DNA from: Favolaschia claudopus
Lineage: Eukaryota; Basidiomycota; Agaricomycetes; Agaricales; Mycenaceae
Reading direction: 5' to 3'
Length of the DNA: 64,000 bases
Assembly (NCBI GenBank): GCA_037176885.1
Contig: JAWWNJ010000141.1
Span: 62,001 to 126,000 of the forward strand
Positions 24,891 through 36,163 of the stretch are shown one piece after another. Position numbers and translations under genes: made by a program. The notes below the pieces were generated by a model. It searched no databases, was not told the DNA's origin, and was given only the letters and a program-made list of their open reading frames with translations. Numbering within the stretch: position 1 is the stretch's first letter; each line of letters begins with the position of its first letter.

Positions 24891-25519
24891 TCGGAAAAAT
24901 CCTGGGCAGCTTGTGTCGCCTCGTAAGTCAATATAAGCCGCCATGAGGTCATAATCCATAAGGGGATTATAGCGCATAGGTGTAAACCTTTCAAGCCGCT
25001 ATAATCCATGCTGGGGATTATACGGGATTTAGGTGTCTACAAGCCATTACTGTGCATTACCGCGCATTACCGCACATTTAAGAAATGAAGGGCTCGATTA
25101 TTGTGACAAAAACATGTATTCATGGGCTACGACAACGGCTGGGTGTTACCCGCCACACCACGGATCGCCTACGGGGTAACCTCGACTTGGAATCCGATGC
25201 CGGAACTACCTATGAGCAAACACTGTGCAAACGTACCACACGAATCATACCCGATGCAACACAACGCTGGAAAGCGGTCATTAGAACCGGAAGAGCAGAA
25301 AAGAGACTGCTAAACGCACTAAATGGTGACAAGAATTGATTCCAGAGAATTCAGACAATTTCAGACGCAACTGAAAGTCGACTCGGGCGACAACTCACCA
25401 GGGAATCCGCGAACATTTGGCCCTCGTAGTACACCTCAGACTTCGACAGAGCGAGCGGGGGGAGCAGACAATTTCGTAGACCGCGCCGACTGCAAGTTAA
25501 CAAGGTAAGGTGAAAGAGA
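24891..25519. other. Gene-free; small inverted repeat
   Basis: Near 24948-25022, ATAATCC...GGGGATTATAGCG is followed by its inverted version CGCTATAATCC...GGGGATTAT, a small fold-back structure. Three near-identical GCATTACCGC words follow at 25050-25075. No protein-like frame is supported up to the long inverted repeat. Confidence 0.35.
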
Positions 25520-26290
25520 CTTTTACAGCAGTTTGCAGATGTAATGACACCACGTCGCATCACATGAGAAGAAAGCACAAAAAACACGTCTTCTTCTCTC
25601 CTTCGTATCTCTCTCGTTTCGACGACAAATAGCATGGTTTTGGTATCGGAGGACTCGCCGTAATCCGGGCTTCAAAACGACTATCTTTTATCGCCGAAAT
25701 CCTGACTTAATTTTGGCCGACATCCACCTTGCTCGTCATCGTCATCGCCGTCTTGGACGCAATTCTGGAGAGAATGCCTCGTGTGTAGGCGCGTTAGGAG
25801 GGCAGTTCTAGTCGCTTTCAATCTACATATATGCATTTGTAGCGCAGATTCCGGTTAAATAACTTATTGTTCTCGTGTCTCTTCTCTACTTCCACCGTGA
25901 TCACAGTTTCGTTCTCTGGTTTTGTTCCTTCTCAGGCGCGGGTCACAATTCCCTGCCGTGCGGTGTATAGCACCAGTGGGGTGCGTCTTCAAAAGGAAAG
26001 GACGCTAATTTTTCGCTAAATTTCGCTGTGGCGTATTCTTAGGCTCGTAAACCAGCCGGTCCGGTGTGACTGATCCCATCGTAACACTCAGGCGGACACC
26101 TTAACCGGCTGGGCCCGCATGACGCCGTTTTGGCAGATGGATTTTCGCCCCGCCATCTCAGAGGCTTGACTTAGAAAAAATGCGTCGAAAACCTCTCAGA
26201 ACTCGTTCTGAGGTCTCCGCATGAAAGATGGGTTATTTCTGATTCTCCATCGATTGGGAAAAAAATCCATTTTTGTCCAATTTCGGTATA
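25520..26290. repeat. Left long inverted repeat of the helicase/DUF6589 unit
   Basis: The outer about 215 bp (from AGCAGTTTGCAGATGTAATG at 25528 through GGCCGACATCCACC near 25730) and the inner about 180 bp (26108-26290, with GGCAGATGGATTTTCGCC and ATCGATTG) align in inverse orientation to 34262-34990. The middle part matches less clearly. Confidence 0.7.
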
Positions 26291-26449
26291 AATTACGGGC
26301 TTTCGTGCATGTATCTGAGGGTATATAGTTGTTCTACAGTACAGATGAGTTTACAACAACACTGTGCTTGTATATAGAGTAAATTCGATGAGCAAAACTA
26401 TTGCGGCGGCGCGTAAATTAGGAAGTTTGTGGCTGTGTTCAAAATGGAT

Positions 26450-27083
26450 GGTCTGGAGAGACCACGGGGATTGGTAGTGAGCACGTGCCCTCTCTCTTTG
26501 TCAGCCTCAGAGATTTTTTCTTCCTTCGCCCCCATCTCCCCCTCCAGCTTTTGGCCTCCGTGGCTTCGTATCTACCTCCGTGGCCTTGCCCTCGTTCTCA
26601 TACTAGTTTTTGTTGTTTCGCATTGTACACAGCTCTAGTTCGACGGGCCTGAGGACCTCGCGGGGTTCGGAGGCACTTCTCTCATCCGCTGGCTCCTTGC
26701 GGACTTCTGCAGCCCCCAGTTCAAGTGGGCTGCTCCGTGCCCGTTCCACTTGCAACCCTCCACAAGCTCCAGAGGTATGTGAAGCTTGTGGAACGGGCCG
26801 TCATCCCCCTCTCCTTCTTTTCGACTCTCTGGCCACAATGTTCCCGCCCTTCGCCGTCACTCTCGTATTTCGATCTGGCGGTCTACCACCCGGCTTTCTG
26901 TGGAGGGCCTTTGGCGTCCGTGCAAGTATCTCCCCCGCCTTTCGGCTGGTCGATTGCACTCGCTTCATTGGGCTGCCGAGGCCCTCCCTCTTGTAGGAGC
27001 ACTGCGGGGCTCATAGTTTAGCCCTTCCGCCAATTTATACAGATCTAGTACCTCTCTCTCTCTCTCTCAGAGCGAGCGAGACC
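26450..27083. repeat. Direct repeat copy 1 (634 bp, long interior)
   Basis: Starts GGTCTGGAGAGACCACGGGG and ends CAGAGCGAGCGAGACC after a CT dinucleotide run. The first 167 bp and last 114 bp match copy 2 (27094-27453) essentially base for base as read. The 353-bp interior is different. TGGAT precedes each copy. Apparent open frames in the shared part are duplicated with it and look non-coding. Confidence 0.8.
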
Positions 27084-27093
27084 AATCCTGGAT

Positions 27094-27453
27094 GGTCTGG
27101 AGAGACCACGGGGATTGGTAGTGAGCACGTGCCCTCTCTCTTTGTCAGCCTCAGAGATTTTTTCTTCCTTCGCCCCCATCTCCCCCTCCAGCTTTTGGCC
27201 TCCGTGGCTTCGTATCTACCTCCGTGGCCTTGCCCTCGTTCTCATACTAGTTTTTGTTGTCCCACCCACCATCCCCAGCTTACTTGTCCCATTTGCGTGT
27301 TTGTGTTAGTTAGGCTTATTTAGTTTTTAGCTACACGGTGGGCTGCCGAGGCCCTCCCTCTTGTAGGAGCACTGCGGGGCTCATAGTTTAGCCCTTCCGC
27401 CAATTTATACAGATCTAGTACCTCTCTCTCTCTCTCTCAGAGCGAGCGAGACC
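27094..27453. repeat. Direct repeat copy 2 (360 bp, short interior)
   Basis: Same ends as copy 1, but with an unrelated 79-bp interior (27261-27339). It lies 10 bp after copy 1 and is followed by AAGGATACTG. GGAT on both outer sides of the pair may be a target duplication. The left-reading Pro-rich frame of the helicase side runs straight into this repeat. Confidence 0.8.
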
Positions 27454-27459
27454 AAGGAT

Positions 27460-28157
27460 ACTGTACGGCGCTCGCATCGACGGCGGCATCGTCGAAGGGG
27501 GCGTAGGGTAAAACTGAGTGTATGGATTATGCGAGTGAGCCCCAGGCATTCCGGGAGGTATAGAAATTGGGGTGTACGGGGGGTAAGGATTGTAGAATGG
27601 GCTCGGAGAATGCACTGCAATGGGATTATAAGGTGTGAAACGATGTTGGGGTGGCGTTGGATAGTTATGAGCTGAGTTCATCGGGGTATGCATATGATTT
27701 GACAATGTGTGTGATGTAGATGTGGAAGAGGAAAGGAGAGGGGTAGTGGGCAGAGGAAAGGGAGGGAAATTTGGATGCGGCAGCGAAGGGACTGCCAGTG
27801 TTTGTGGTATGAAGGAGGCTGTTGGACGGGGACGAGACGGGGTGACAAAAGACGGAGGTTGATGCAACGTTGATGCGCAGCAAGTGCCGCATGCGCACCA
27901 TTGCTGTGAAAGAGTGGTTTAGGCTGTATTCGGGGTATGATCGGAGTTTGCGATACAGAGAAAGAGGAGGTGCTGGCTTGCGGGACGGGCAGCGAGTTCG
28001 TGTAGTGAGATGGGGATGCATAATTGAGTCGAACACGAGTGGCTGCTGGTGGCCCTTCACCCGCAGATAGATCCCGCGACGTAGAGGATCGTTTTCGGTG
28101 ATTTGTCGCAGTGGGAGAGCGAGGGGTTATGGGAAGCGTAGTGGGCAGTATGGGCAA
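27460..28157 (-). pseudogene. Pro/Ser-rich open stretch downstream of the helicase
   Basis: Reading leftwards, two frames that appear to join near 27870 encode a low-complexity Pro/Ser/Tyr-rich sequence (SNPQPxx-like SPTPS and PPYTPISIPPGMPG stretches). It may be a C-terminal tail of the helicase reached by an unresolved intron, or a separate decayed frame. The frame is interrupted at 27453 by the direct-repeat pair. If both repeats and one GGAT are ignored, it continues for about 30 codons beyond 26449 to a TAA. That continuation is an inference. Confidence 0.35.
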
Positions 28158-28236
28158 TGCAGCTACACCAAGAACCGATTATGGAACGGAAGCTGGCCGT
28201 TTCTGTCGCGAGGGTGGGGGTGGTAAGGCAGGAATA

Positions 28237-30300
28237 TCAAGACCCTTCATACATATATACAAACAAATCTTGTCCCAGTTCCCCCCAGCGCGACCAACAG
28301 GACCCCAAGAGCTGTTGTAGAGTCTCGATAGCATTGATTGGGCCCACGGAGGCCAGCAGCTCACATGTGGCGTCATCTAAAATCGCATTTGCTGCAAAAT
28401 AGCAGCGGGTATAACGTGTCTTCAATATGTTCCGCCGCCAAAGATATAGCGCCTCCCGAACACTGTCGACTGGAGGACCTTTTCGGACCCCTTTCTGGCG
28501 AGTGGCTCGAACAGGTTTGCTCGGGCGAACCTGATCAAACAATTTGGGGTTGCAGATGTCACAACATTGTGCTGCCGGAACGTCTGCAGTGATGTATAGT
28601 TAGCGGCAAGACAATACCAAAGAAATTTGAGAGACGTACTGTGTGCAGGATTATTGAAAATTTGACTGAGAATGCGGCGGCGACATATTGTCGCCTGTAT
28701 CAACATATAGATACCCTCGCGCGGCATATTATATGTGATAACATGTTCGTCGCGCGGAGGCACGGCGTCGTCCGATCCCCTGAACGAGCCTCGTTTCTGA
28801 CCATGCAGAACGGCGTAATCACGCCCTTGTTTCTCTCCCCCCCGGCCGCCGCGAACATCTCGCCCACCTCGACCTCTGCCGCCGCGTCCGCGTCCGGATG
28901 TCTGCGTAGAAGCCGCGACTGCGGCATCAGCTGCAGGATTGACTTCAAACGCAGCTTTCTCTGCAAGCATCACCGCTAGGCCGAGCATGCCCTGACGGCG
29001 CGCAGCACGACCAGCGCGTTGTATCCAAGCCGAGACGGTTTGTGGTACTTTCCACTGGACAACGAGCGCAATGTTCGGTAAATCACAGCCCTAGAATATG
29101 AGATGAGTGAAGATGAACAGATTAAGAAACATGGAGTGAGCTTACCATGCCCGCCGCATCTGTGCACACCAATACCCGAATAACACCGGCCTTGAAAAGA
29201 GACATGACATGGGCGCGATACTCTCGAGACATTCCCGCGTTGTAGGGACGTATCAGCCCTCGCTCTCGATATCTAGGGTGGACTCGCGCATTGAGGTGAT
29301 CCACCAATTGCCCACCGTCCTTGATATCGTCGGTGTAGACGAACGCAAGTTTGATGTCGGCTGGACCTTGATTATCCTCGGGGACGACAAAATCAATGTC
29401 CTTGTATGAATTTGCGGGGTGTTCCATGGCACGAATTACCATGGACACGTTGGGTCGGCCGTTGCCGATGGTGCGGTACATGTATGTGTGCCGATTGAAC
29501 TGAAGCTTTGAGACAAAGTCGTCGCGGACCCGTGGGGTGAGAGTCGCCGTTACAGCAATTACTGAGGTCGTACGAGGTAGAAAGGCACGAATCAATCCGA
29601 TAGAAGCATACTTCTTTCGAAAAGATGCTCCCCAATGGGAGATGCAATGTGCTTCGTCAATGAAAACCGAAAGACAGCGGGATCCAAATTCGGAATTTGC
29701 GTAAGACACTATCCACAAAGCGTCGAGACAGGAGCATCTCAGGAGAGAGCAGAACAATTTGCCACTCCCCTGAAACCACCTTCTGAGAGATTGTCAGCCC
29801 GAGAAGGATTCGCCGCTGCCGCCACACTTCACCTGCATAACCTCCTTTGTACATCCACCATTGGAGCTATTGATTGCGGCGGCCTTCAGCCCGAACTCGG
29901 TTTGAAATGTGGATACCTGGAAAGAGGCGCATGAAGTCTCAGGCAAAGAAGAAACAACAGTGCCTACATGCTCGTCGTGGAGGGACAGGAGGGGGGACAC
30001 CATCAACGTCACCTTTCCTTTACTCGACGGCAATAAGTGTGGGCCTGCGGCAATCCCTGTCTTGCCAGCGCCTGTTGCTGCATGTAATAAAATTTCCTCC
30101 CCTAATATCTGCCCCTCCATGCATTCCAATTGAAAATCTTTCGCACCCTCAGTCCACTTCGTGTAATTTTTGCGTATCAGACCCGGCAGAAGTTTCAGCT
30201 CTTCCTTGAGAGCTTGTAGATCTTCATCACTGCGCCTTGCTGCCGCCCGAGTGCGCTTTGTTTGTTGAGTGGTGTTGCGAGGGGTCACTGTGCCAGACAT
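28237..30300 (-). pseudogene. RecQ-like ATP-dependent DNA helicase, one frameshift
   Basis: Five exons: 29968-30300, 29833-29916, 29146-29782, 28640-29090 and 28237-28583, with introns of 50-56 nt. Motifs in order: Walker A HAATGAGKTGIA; SPLLSL; DEAH box FIDEAHCISHWG; TATLTPRVRDDF; motif V CTDAAGMGCDLP, rebuilt across the third intron; and motif VI QRAGRAARRQG. A Gly/Arg-rich linker (RGRGGRGRGGRD) and a CCDIC cysteine pair follow, then an all-helical C-terminus. Length, about 615 residues, fits a compact RecQ helicase. One extra A in CGCAAATTCC (about 29693-29700) breaks the frame just before the DEAH box, so this copy is probably inactive or there is a sequence error. It would unwind DNA in the nucleus. 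Its placement inside inverted repeats suggests a role in the element's own movement or replication. Confidence 0.82.
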
Positions 30301-30308
30301 TTCAGCAC

Positions 30309-33300
30309 ATGCATCGAGGAGAGAGCAAAGAAGTGATCACGTTTTTTTCTCTCTACCTCCAATGATGCGCCAAAGGCGATCAACCGCTGGACCGTTCTTT
30401 CGTCTGAAATCGAAACCGAGAATGAAGGTTTACCTCCTTCGGACCCGCCAGACCCCTCGTCAAGCGACTCCGAGTCCGAGCATTCAATGGCCATGCCCAA
30501 AATGCCGGCACTCACTACAGTGCTCGGAATCTCGTCTGCTTCTCATGCCAATCTTGGTCCACCAAAGCAACGACGAGGATCCTCTGTGCCGCCCCAAGAC
30601 TCTCCAGACGATGTGGACATTCGTGCTGAGCACCCCCACCAGCGATGACATTCTATATACCCCACGCAAGGAACGGCTGATCCTCCGCCAACGAGCGGAG
30701 CAACAGCGCCAGAAAACGCGGCTATCGAAGCGTGAACAGAAGGTAATCCGGCTCATGATTGCCTGACCTGAGCTTCTTGTAGAGGATTTGAAGGCGGAAG
30801 ATGTAAATCTACAACGAATAGAAGACGAGAAGCGTATTGAGCTGGAAAAAGAGAAGCGAAGACTTCGACGCAATCAGGTCAGAAGTGTTATCAAGGTCAG
30901 AAGAGAAGCTGACATACCACACAGCTCTTTGATAAATTCTTGGAAGATATGAAAGCAGACGACATATCGCTCGCAGAGTTTCTTGATCATGTTTTCAATC
31001 CTGAAACTCGATTGAAGTCAGACTGGCGATGGCGGGGCTTTTTTGCTCACCAGTCTGTAGTCGAGCGAATTTTTGGCTACTGGACCACGTCCAAATATAA
31101 TCAGTCGACGCGCAACTTTCTTCACAACTGGGCAACCAGCCAGGTGTCGAAGGCGGCGTTGGGCGAATCCCGAGTCATAACAAAATCAGGCATCCTAAAC
31201 AAACCAAGAAGGCTATCAATGAAAGCTTCTTCGTTGACTTCAGTCTCACTAACCTCGTGCATACCATTCGTGGGATGGCTCCAACTGTATTCAAGATCTT
31301 GGACAGCTTCTCGACGACGACACGTCAGTTGAAGAGCGCTACGGAAAAGTTTTTGAAGAAGAAGGAACTGGTAAGCAAATTTAGTATTTAGCGGGTGCGG
31401 GGTATATGCTAATAAGTAATCCTGCAACAGATGAAAGGCGCTGCGGCGTTGACCTTGTTGCGTGGAGCAAGTCAGAATAACAACTATGTTCAAGCAGTGA
31501 ATGGAATGTACCTTGCGGCTACTGGCGCACAGCGGCAACACTTTCCGGTTCTCGGTGTATATGGGTTTTCGATTGGTTATACGAGCATCATCTCGAGTGT
31601 ACTTGGAACAGGTAATGGTCGTGAAGCTGCAGGAGAAAAAACAGTGCGTGAAAGTCTGTGCGTGATGACAAAACTGAGCAGCCTCCAGGATGCGGCAGAC
31701 GACATGAATGAAGTTGACGAGGCTCCTGGGGTACCGGTGGCGCAGAAGAAAAAACGGAAAAAGCGCACAAAGAAGGACAAACGCAAACGCGTTCGCGGTC
31801 CTGGTTTGCTGAGTGTGCTCCGAGATGCATGCATGGCAACAGCGCGTTCCCTCGCAAAATCAAACCTGTCACTATTGACGTACGACAACATAAACCTTAT
31901 GAATCGTATTGCAGAACAGATTCTGGGTCGTAAGAGTAAGTCGAGTGTTCCACTTTTTGCAACAAGAAACTTACACAAATGTATTCTAGGTGCACAGGAG
32001 AACGGCACATGTGCCACTCTCATTGCCTTGCACAACGCAAAATTGGAGCATATGCTGACAACGAGCCTCGATGCTTCGATACTGAATGCGCGCCCCCTGA
32101 CCCTGGAAGACATCATTCTTAACGAAGACGAAACAAAATTTCTCACGAAAAATATGGTACATACCATCCTACGCATCATCGTCCTGCATGGTGGCGAGGG
32201 CTTTCAGAAGTGGCGCGAAGACCTAGACAAGTCACAGCCCGTCAGCGAAGATGTCATTGAAGTCCATAAAACTCCCCTTCATCCGCTGCCGACAATGGAA
32301 ATTGACGAAAGTTCCATCACCGGGAACGTGGAGGTGGTCGAGGAGATTATGCGGGTGCTCGGGAAGACGGACGATCCCGACTACGGGAAATACGTGCAGA
32401 TTATCGCTGGAGATCAATTAACGATCGCACGGCAGCGTTCAATATTGAACGTACGTTTAGGGCATGAAAGCGGCCCCCACGCCTGGAGGCACATAGTGCT
32501 GATGCCGGGGCTGTTCCATGCCAAGATTGCGGACTGCCATGGTGTGCTCGAGACGCACTTTGGTAAACCGTCCGCGGGGGCACGTAGTCCTGGGAGCCTT
32601 GGGTTCCACAATACAGTACTTGACCGCCTGCCGATTACACTCACCTCACTACCGCCATTCCGAACGTGCCGGGACTTGATTATGGTGTCGCTCTATGCTC
32701 GTGTCTTGCACTGCCTGCTTATTGTGTCTGGTCACGACTCCCTGGAAGCATGCGCAGCGTCAATTGACACCTGGGATAGGCTTGTCAGTCACGCTGAGAA
32801 GATTTATGAAACGTACACCGACGTGGACCGTGTTCAGGAGCTCCGGGAACGTCGAATTCCAGAAGAAAGGGCGCGGGACATTGCTGCCAAAGCAGCCGTT
32901 AAAGGCAAGAAGAAACCCGCCGAAACTGCGAAGGAGCATCCTCCGCACATCCGGAAAGGGGACATGGTCTTCGAGAATGCCGTCCTATTTCTTCGCGACG
33001 CGTTACTGACCCGCGAGTTTGCCGACGCGATCAAGAGTGGGGACTCTGGGCGCATTGTTATTATCTTACGTCTCTGGGCGTTCTCGTATCGGGGAAATGG
33101 ACGCACCAAATATGCGCATGAGATGCTCCACATATTACACAACTTGATATGTGTCTGGACGAACGAACTGCGGTAAGTTTCACAATTGACAAACACGCGG
33201 AACACACTAACGTTGCTTGAAGTTACATTGTACTGCAGAACTGGTTAGCAAATCACAGGGAAAGATCAAGGCCTTTGTCGAGATAGACCTTGTGCAAGAA

Positions 33301-34059
33301 CATCTGAATTTCTGGATAAAGGTAGGCAGGTAAAGACTATTCAAAACGGTAGCTGAAACGCACCTTTAGAAGATATACAAGGCCGACGGAGCTGGTCACT
33401 CATGGGACTGGCTTGCACTCGTGTCTCCGTGTGTTGATATTCTTCGGCAGTTAGCGACTCGAATGAATGTCGAGCTCGGGACTCGGCAAGGGTCCAAACA
33501 CGCTACCCCGGACCTCGCGGCCGATATTGCTGCTTTGATGGCAAGCCTCGATGAACACGAAGTCTACGTTGAGAAGGAGGGACGTGTTCTGGATGACGAC
33601 GAGAAACCGGCACCAGATGTCATCTCTGTGGGTATGGCGGCATTGACCCATGGAACGACAACTACTCCGCTCGCTGAATTCAATCAGCAGTTCGAGGTCC
33701 TCCGTGAACGGCGCCGTCTGACTCCAGTTGCCGACCTGCTGAGCCTCATCAACGCCCGCGAGGACCTCCTTCCTCAGACGTCGGCTGACGAGAGTGATGC
33801 GTTTGAAAATGCTTCCGCGGAATCAGATGAAGAGTTCCCTAGGCCGGCGGACTTGCTTGGGCAGGGTGGGGACGAAACGGAGGAAGAGAGCGAAACGGAA
33901 GACGACGCGTTGATAGACTCGCCGACTTTAACTCGATTTGACGAGGGCGACGTCGAGCTCGATATCGATGGAGTCCCAGAGTGGTATTTGGATGACGAAG
34001 ACAGCGAGGATGGGGACTCTGGGACTGATGACGAGGACTCAGAGGATGATGAAGAGTAG
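30309..34059 (+). pseudogene. DUF6589-domain protein, several frameshifts
   Basis: Exons end or begin at these introns: 30743-30784, 30878-30924, 31371-31430, 31936-31989 (54 nt, so the frame stays open if unspliced), 33173 to about 33221, and 33322-33369. The N-terminal part is Ser/Glu-rich, then coiled-coil (KRIELEKEKRRLRRNQ). The core has TGAQRQHFPVLG, AGDQLTIARQRS, MPGLFHAKIADCHG and VEIDLVQEHLNFWIK, which I take as the DUF6589 family common in Agaricomycetes. The C-terminus is a long Asp/Glu tail. Reading frame is lost near 30330 (T run) or the start is unresolved, near 30600, near 31190 and near 33250. Function of DUF6589 is not known to me. The conserved Asp, His and Glu positions would allow a nuclease fold (inference). 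Confidence 0.75.
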
Positions 34060-34261
34060 TATAATATAGAGGAATAACAAGTAGCTTGACGTTGGACTGC
34101 AGGAACGCGACGAGAGTTGTTGACGCGCTGGCTGCCTCGTGGAATGATCGGCTTCGCACAGCCACATATCGAGCCCAATTTGGACACACAGAGAACCTTC
34201 GTCAATGCAGCGGGCTCTAGCCACATTATGGGAAGCTTTTTGGTCACAGGGGAATCCAATG

Positions 34262-34990
34262 TACCCTGTTAATATATTTTTAGCCTAATCTGCATTGAAG
34301 TTGGAGTTATTTCGACAAGAAACCCGAAATTGATCAATCGATAGAGAATCCAAAACAACCCATTTTTCATTAGGACACTTTGGGACGAGTTTTTGAAGAC
34401 TTTCGACGCGTTTTTTCTAAGTCCCCCCCGGCGGGGCGAAAATCCATCTGCCAAACCGGCGCCATGCGGGTCCAGTCCGTACACGAGGTCACCCTCATCA
34501 CTGTTCTCATCATTGTTTGTCGTGATGTTTTCCCTCCTTCCTAAATAGTCCCTCCCTCTCGGATTGTGACCGAAGTGTACGTCGACTGGCCTGCGAGTCT
34601 AGCGTATTCTATTTTTCTCGTTTGCCACTGGAGTCTGCGTGGCTTACTTACTATTAGCCACTTTGTACCACACATACACTACTAAGCATGCCAGATGACT
34701 ATTTTCTGGAGATCTCAAGACTCATTCTGTGTGCATAACCCTGCTAGGAGCGCGACAACGTTGGAGAAGCTGGATGTCAAGTGGATGTCGACCAAAATCA
34801 AAGTCGGAATTTTGACAATAAAATACCAGCGTCTTGAGGCCCGGATTAAGGCGACCTCATACATACAAGAATAGTCGATATTGGGCAAGAAACGAGCAAG
34901 AACGAGGCGATACAAGAAGACGTATTTTTCGTGCTTTCTTTACATGTGATGCGACGTGGTGTCATTACATCTGCAAACTGCTATAAAGAG
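34262..34990. repeat. Right long inverted repeat of the helicase/DUF6589 unit
   Basis: Inverse, diverged copy of 25520-26290. Best blocks: 34905-34985 (contains CATCTGCAAACTGCT and GATGCGACGTGGTGTCATTA), 34775-34860 (GGATGTCGACCAAAAT, GGCCCGGATTAAGGCGA), and 34320-34475 (CGGGGCGAAAATCCATCTGCC). Confidence 0.7.
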
Positions 34991-36163
34991 TTCGAACGAC
35001 GGAAGACATGATTCGAAGGCAGACGTGAATCACAGGAGGTGGTAGCACCGAAGAGGATGACCTGAATATGAGAGTTGTGCGGTAGTTGTGGTGGTGGTTG
35101 GGGAGGAAGAGGCGTGGGTTTTTTTTCCAATGTACTGGGTCCCGTGATAAAAAACGCGAAAAAGAAAGAAAGAAGAGGGAGAAAAAGAGAGAACTCATGA
35201 CGCTTGGCCACAGTGTTCTGGGTTGATACAAGTGTATAGCGTTGAGTGCTTGCAGGTCAATTGCTAGGCTAATCTGTCCTCAGATTATTCAGACTTGGTA
35301 TCAGCGAACAAATTATAATTTTCTCTTCATTGAAACAAGGCAAATATATGGTAGACACAGATAAGAAGTAGAGATACAAAGCGCTATGCGCGGAGGTTCG
35401 TATCCGAGTTCGAGAATGCATCAAAACCACTGGCAACGCCCCCGTTCGTGCTCGTAGTGTTGGCGGCAAAGGCAAGTGCGGGAGCTGTGCAGTAGGCCAT
35501 CTATGTGAAGCCAGACATGCAAACAAAAAGTCGAGCCATTGGAGTCCAGTCGTATGTACACCCACTCTGAAATTGAAAGTCTGGCGAGTATTGTGACAAC
35601 ATGAGCAATAGCATGTGTTGGTGGGGTCAGGGCACGCACCACGTGAAAACTACGACTCTGCTATGAATTCTCCCGGTTAGCGTTAGGTTTCGCTATGGAT
35701 GCCGGACGAAGTATGGGAGCGGGGGTAACATCGGCTCGATGGCTTGGGCGTAAGTTTGATTCGACGAAGACGAGGGTGAATGATCGAGGAGAGTTGCGTT
35801 GGAGTCGGATTCGGGGCAATAGAATAGAGCAGCGTGCTAGAGAGAAGGGTTAGTGGAAGTCTGAGGGGAAGATGGGTAGTCAGCGCACCTGTTACCGTGC
35901 TCTCGTTGCAATACATTGCCATGCGAATCACTCAGCGAGCGATTGCACGAATGGCGACGCCGGGGACAGGCGAGGAGCTATGTATGTGCTTGGAGGTCAT
36001 TGAGGTGGGGAGCCTGTTGGTCAGTCGAGTCATTTTGCAGTCACTTTGAAAGAGCGAGGGAGCCTAAAAAGAGCGGCGGTGACGGTGACGGCCACAGAAA
36101 CAATGACAGACGGCGACGGTGGCGACGGCATCGAGGAGAGAGCTGGCGGCATGGTGGTGCGGG
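34991..36163. other. Gene-free
   Basis: No supported coding frame. Purine-rich runs (AAGAAAGAAAGAAGAGGGAG) at 35160-35190 and simple CGACGGTGGCGACGG at 36110-36130. Nothing assignable. Confidence 0.35.

Follow-up and report, generated by a model that had tools for sequence, protein, structure and literature searches.

A helicase- and DUF6589-encoding transposon, most likely of an AcademH family, nested in a small non-autonomous element of Favolaschia claudopus

Genes, inverted repeats and the border of two elements

The window, a 64,000-nucleotide stretch of Favolaschia claudopus DNA (C141:62001-126000, from a genome of 264.6 Mb in 460 contigs), contains a RecQ-like helicase gene and a DUF6589 gene that diverge between inverted repeats. 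A first-pass annotation of this DNA had correctly recognized the two genes and the outer edge AGCAGTTTGCAGATGTAATG, and had joined them into one transposon at 25520-34990 with a single pair of ~0.75-kb inverted repeats. We compared 25400-26500 with the reverse complement of 34100-35100 by BLASTN and obtained two inverted matches, 25522-25727 versus 34781-34987 (210 columns, 79% identity, E = 4e-40) and 26109-26256 versus 34335-34475 (148 columns, 78%, E = 7e-31), both far above chance expectation; a second comparison gave similar blocks. The inverted repeats are real, but they are split between two nested elements instead of forming one pair: the outer 210 columns are part of a non-autonomous element with terminal inverted repeats (TIRs), and the inner 148 columns are part of the element that carries the helicase and DUF6589 genes.

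The border of the two elements is marked by the nine bases GCGTATTCT, which occur twice in the window and only once in all 19 of the outer elements checked with both ends; the inner terminus is absent from the same 19 loci. These 19 copies represent 17 sites, as flanks are common to L006 and L015 and to L007 and L021. Since the nine bases are doubled in the window and single in the short copies, the inner segment must have inserted into one of these small elements. The gene-carrying element is therefore bounded by this border rather than by 25520-34990, and the ends named in the first-pass annotation belong to the host element of the insertion. We consider it likely that the window contains a nest, in which a helicase/DUF6589 transposon of an AcademH family lies inside a ~0.89-kb non-autonomous TIR element (Table 1). 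The case shows that nested insertions can mimic long terminal repeats (LTRs).

The inner element measures 8.6 kb, or about 7.6 kb minus a later insertion of 1,004 bp, which the first-pass annotation missed. The two partial direct copies within this later insertion share blocks of 172 and 117 bases, and the insertion may be a small LTR-type element. Contig C117 has the same transposon insertion as the window, with both flanks >99% identical where aligned, so the assembly seems to contain both haplotypes. The C117 allele also carries a different insertion of ~3.1 kb (L062, C117:728703-731834), which lies in the outer element's left arm.

Table 1. Coordinates of the two nested elements and their genes in the window
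Feature	Position	Strand	Remark
Inner element, AcademH-like, RecQ helicase and DUF6589	26040..34601	+	ends TAGGCTCG..CGAGTCTA
9-bp target duplication GCGTATTCT, left copy	26031..26039	.	single in short outer elements (see text)
9-bp target duplication GCGTATTCT, right copy	34602..34610	.	
Subterminal inverted repeat of inner element, left arm	26104..26256	+	also in C42 copy, which is without outer element
Subterminal inverted repeat of inner element, right arm	34335..34480	-	
Later insertion, two partial direct copies	26452..27455	.	absent from C117 allele; direct repeats D1, D2
RecQ-like helicase gene, several exons, approximate ends	28237..30300	-	open frames, Pfam, database relatives
DUF6589 gene, several exons, approximate start	30363..34059	+	annotated protein on C117 is P0001, 982 aa
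Long DUF6589 open frame, 581 aa	31431..33176	+	runs through two short probable introns relative to P0001
Proposed DDE residues, long DUF6589 frame	D152 (31884-31886), D328 (32412-32414), E564 (33120-33122)	+	
TA target duplication, left (target TTAA)	25524..25525	.	flanks of 30 end loci; 7/7 aligned empty sites
Outer non-autonomous TIR element, left part, CAGCAG end	25526..26039	+	includes one 9-bp target copy of inner element
Outer non-autonomous TIR element, right part	34611..34983	+	CTGCTA end here
TA target duplication, right	34984..34985	.	end loci flanks and empty sites

Ends and target duplications across the genome

Nine insertion sites of the inner element and its relatives were read in the genome, and eight of them have a 9-bp duplication and TAG..CTA ends; the copy on C29, an apparent allele of that on C73, was left out of this reading. 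The C42 copy (helicase 72%) contains the inner repeats without the outer repeats, and the nine bases GTCGTTTCC are repeated on its two sides. The ends of five other close copies (C73, C22, C190, C59, and C26) were located by a scan for TAG[AG]CTCG with at most one mismatch; several chance matches turned up in each stretch, and we chose the pair whose flanks agreed. Each of these five copies has its own 9-bp duplication; the inner ends of the window align by BLASTN in four of them (C73, C22, C59, and C26), and the ends of C190 were read from motif and repeat alone. Among the distant copies, C21 (DUF6589 31% identical, opposite gene orientation) has a 9-bp duplication and TAG..CTA ends, found by eye, and C79 (L082, C79:1189905-1196487; DUF6589 32%, convergent genes) has an 8-bp duplication and CAAGG ends, found by a repeat scan.

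The outer repeats, which other copies of the gene pair would be expected to share under the first-pass annotation, were found in none of the six other close copies (C42, C73, C22, C190, C59, and C26) within the flanks covered, 0.5-1.5 kb per side for five copies and more for C42; among the stretches searched, they occur in the C117 allele only. The pair does recur in multiple copies, but with its own inner ends. In principle, 25520-34990 could be a single transposon of ~9.5 kb bounded by the CAGCAG ends, of which the short copies are internal-deletion derivatives, as these ends are found repeatedly, flanked by a TA duplication, and the short copies have both of them. However, the joint in the short copies is exactly the 9-bp repeat of the window, and each of the six other close copies ends differently, has a 9-bp duplication of its own and lacks CAGCAG repeats within the fetched stretch, which makes this explanation extremely improbable.

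The outer element belongs to an abundant non-autonomous TIR family with CAGCAG ends, TTAA targets and a TA duplication. A genome scan with its left 101 bases gave matches at 40 scored places (of 355 candidates), the window among them. Thirty loci were fetched, of which 26 contain the left ~513 bases and right ~381 bases of the window, or parts of both, three contain the left part only, and the remaining one is the window. Copies that have both ends span about 0.89-1.5 kb; in the window, the element comprises 25526-26039 plus 34602-34983, with the right 9-bp copy counted in. The left end stands in a TTAC context wherever it was read (30 loci), and the right ends read are CTGCTG in a GTAA context, except for that of the window, which is CTGCTA in ATAA.

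The joined flanks of 14 copies were used to search for empty sites, with 40 candidates scored per scan; a second scan repeated most flanks, minus four already matched, with an imperfectly typed probe string. All seven empty sites fetched and aligned (93-100% identity over the probe) read TTAA, which means that the outer element duplicates the 2-bp TA. Two further probes gave weaker matches only (87-90%). No transposase of the outer element was found in the open frames of five 3-kb partial-match loci, which were viewed by eye without a family search. Locus L029 (C86:108943-112040) may hold another nested helicase element: about 370 bases past its copy of the outer left end comes DNA that includes a different RecQ-like match (C86:111546-112070).

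The gene pair and a candidate DDE transposase

The helicase and DUF6589 genes are a mobile pair: they occur side by side at many loci, and the ends and a near-constant target duplication recur with them. The DUF6589 genome scan (75 scored of 261 candidates) gave 59 pieces that merged into 49 loci, the DUF6589 identity of matched pieces reaching down to about 25%. A RecQ-like match lies within 6 kb at 31 of the 49 loci, versus a chance expectation of 0.0074 per locus and 0.36 in total; the pairing is real, and the first-pass annotation was right to see the two genes as a mobile pair. The paired loci are not independent, as C117 carries the allele of the window's copy, and pairs such as C151/C160 or C206/C222 look like alleles or duplicates. 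Nine pairs are divergent (C141, C117, C73, C29, C22, C59, C26, C42, and C190) and 22 are convergent, and the 9-bp duplication occurs in both orientation classes (C21 among the convergent). The other 18 loci have no RecQ-like neighbor; some neighbors may have been missed, as the scores cover 150 of 279 helicase candidates, and some loci are fragments. The helicase scan yielded 150 scored RecQ-like matches (of 279 candidates), yet just 31 DUF6589 loci have one nearby, so that the genome probably contains further elements with a helicase or further copies of the gene.

A similar association was seen in the protein database, where the best 120 rows were taken for each protein and rows without an organism name were removed (36 for DUF6589, one for the helicase). 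Among the 119 named helicase rows, 32 share the species and an identical-size contig with one of the 84 named DUF6589 rows, on 31 contigs in 24 species. Such a partner was found for 23 of the 49 best helicase rows versus nine of the 70 others. Sharing of several-Mb contigs proves little alone; the shared contigs include two of only 5,792 and 7,141 bases.

The helicase open frames in the window give weak DEAD matches in two cases (E = 5.2e-6 and 9e-4, Pfam), and near 29700 this copy differs in reading frame from the C117 allele. The database relatives P0121, P0122, P0190, and P0219 all match both PF00270 and PF00271. Searched against PDB sequences, P0122 matched 117, with RecQ-family chains first; the matches include 1oyw ("ATP-dependent DNA helicase", E = 1.3e-33), 4tmu ("RecQ", E = 1.7e-33), WRN and BLM. 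The best 120 helicases are mostly labelled P-loop hydrolase, "ATP-dependent DNA helicase Q-like 3" or hypothetical.

The long frame of the second gene matches DUF6589 (PF20231) with E = 1.2e-106. This domain occurs in hundreds of proteins, and the named organisms among the best 120 are all mushroom-forming fungi; the labels of these 120 are hypothetical or DUF6589. Compared with known structures, models of DUF6589 show a resemblance of moderate score to DDE transposases of the RNase-H fold, the best fold matches being Hermes and the P element. The predicted strands and a late helix can be overlaid on an RNase-H-like core in which a helical part precedes the last acidic residue. The proposed D, D, and E residues are almost invariant in alignment A3, and their counterparts in P0002 (Asp303, Asp461, and Glu696) are conserved at 98-100%. 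Because of this fold resemblance and the conserved residues, the DUF6589 protein is probably the transposase.

Several further results bear on this assignment. The fold evidence is moderate and the transposase activity a prediction; the structural alignments with Hermes and the P element have a sequence identity of 6-13%. In Foldseek, the model of the window frame, which two intron read-throughs may harm, had no transposase near the top (Hermes at rank 37, E = 3.2), an absence that rules out no fold family. When 43 DUF6589 members were scanned with Pfam (E up to 10), 23 families were matched, none of them a transposase family, the commonest other match being RUN (14 members, best E = 0.0065), and the DUF6589 profile had no match among PDB sequences up to E = 1. 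The Pfam search of the element itself covered six open frames. DUF6589 might be an accessory protein, with another, unseen protein as the transposase; as those six frames gave helicase and DUF6589 as the sole families, and as the D, D, and E residues are so strongly conserved at plausible RNase-H positions, we regard this as improbable.

The history of the locus can be pictured as follows. A ~0.89-kb non-autonomous TIR element sat at a TTAA site, and the 8.6-kb helicase/DUF6589 transposon jumped into it, leaving the 9-bp target duplication. As the putative DDE transposase, the DUF6589 protein would bind the ends, cut them and insert them into the target at positions staggered by 9 bp, and the helicase may assist by unwinding DNA, either at the ends or while gaps are filled.

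A broader proposal is that DUF6589 defines an extensive lineage of mushroom DDE transposases, as yet without a name, with the RecQ helicase as its obligate partner, because the pair survives deep divergence and a change of orientation, with the 9-bp cut in both classes. We hold this to be conceivable, though doubtful; if true, about one-fifth of the 150 scored RecQ-like matches would be cargo of the DUF6589 lineage. The probable function as a transposase would also mean that DUF6589 genes are to be masked as mobile elements instead of being treated as host gene families.

Comparison with AcademH and other transposons

AcademH is reportedly a helicase-encoding lineage of Academ, described by Kojima in 2020. 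PMC10045372 gives AcademH duplications of 9 or 10 bp and an encoded helicase, PMC3627910 names a "RecQ Helicase in Academ", and PMC10799480 describes AcademH as present at low copy number in fungi, Basidiomycota among them. The first-pass claim of a new class with no described counterpart is thus unlikely to hold. Because a helicase and 9-10 bp duplications in fungi are the published outline of AcademH, the inner element is most likely a new AcademH family; we infer its Academ membership from the fit to that outline.

Alternatively, a DUF6589 transposase with a RecQ helicase and 9-bp duplications could define a distinct undescribed superfamily that is AcademH-like in outline only. This would suit the distant fold matches and the Pfam scan without transposase families, as well as the fact that DUF6589 is not named in the Creative Commons (CC)-licensed PMC literature searched, where nothing joining Favolaschia, genome and transposable elements was found either. 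The 8-bp duplication of the related C79 copy, one odd site, differs from the AcademH rule. Nevertheless, the type of helicase, the length of the duplication and the presence in fungi each suit the AcademH outline, and a separate superfamily appears unlikely.

Other transposon groups share single features with the nested elements. KolobokH, the fungal Kolobok type with a RecQ helicase, resembles the inner element in host and helicase; according to PMC9587614, Kolobok elements have a 4-bp TTAA duplication and 5'-RR..YY-3' ends, as opposed to the 9 bp and 5'-TAG..CTA-3' ends here, so that a KolobokH origin is hardly credible. The hAT elements, for which PMC12730594 gives duplications of 8 bp, with 5, 6, and 7 in sublineages, are rejected on the 9 bp at eight of nine inner-element sites; the hAT and P element transposases resemble DUF6589 in fold only. 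The outer element duplicates 2 bp, as do the TA-duplicating fungal families ESTA and PHISTA and also PlavakaA (2 bp), and its ends are like those of the CMCT group, CA..TG in most members according to PMC12730594.

AcademH remains the closest comparison for the inner element, which encodes a helicase of the RecQ type named for Academ, duplicates 9 bp at eight of nine sites under a rule of 9 or 10 bp, and is present at low copy in a basidiomycete, with nine close helicase loci (alleles counted) and 49 DUF6589 loci in 264.6 Mb, among the 75 candidates scored of 261. DUF6589 as the probable transposase and the two gene orientations are most likely modest additions to this known kind of element.
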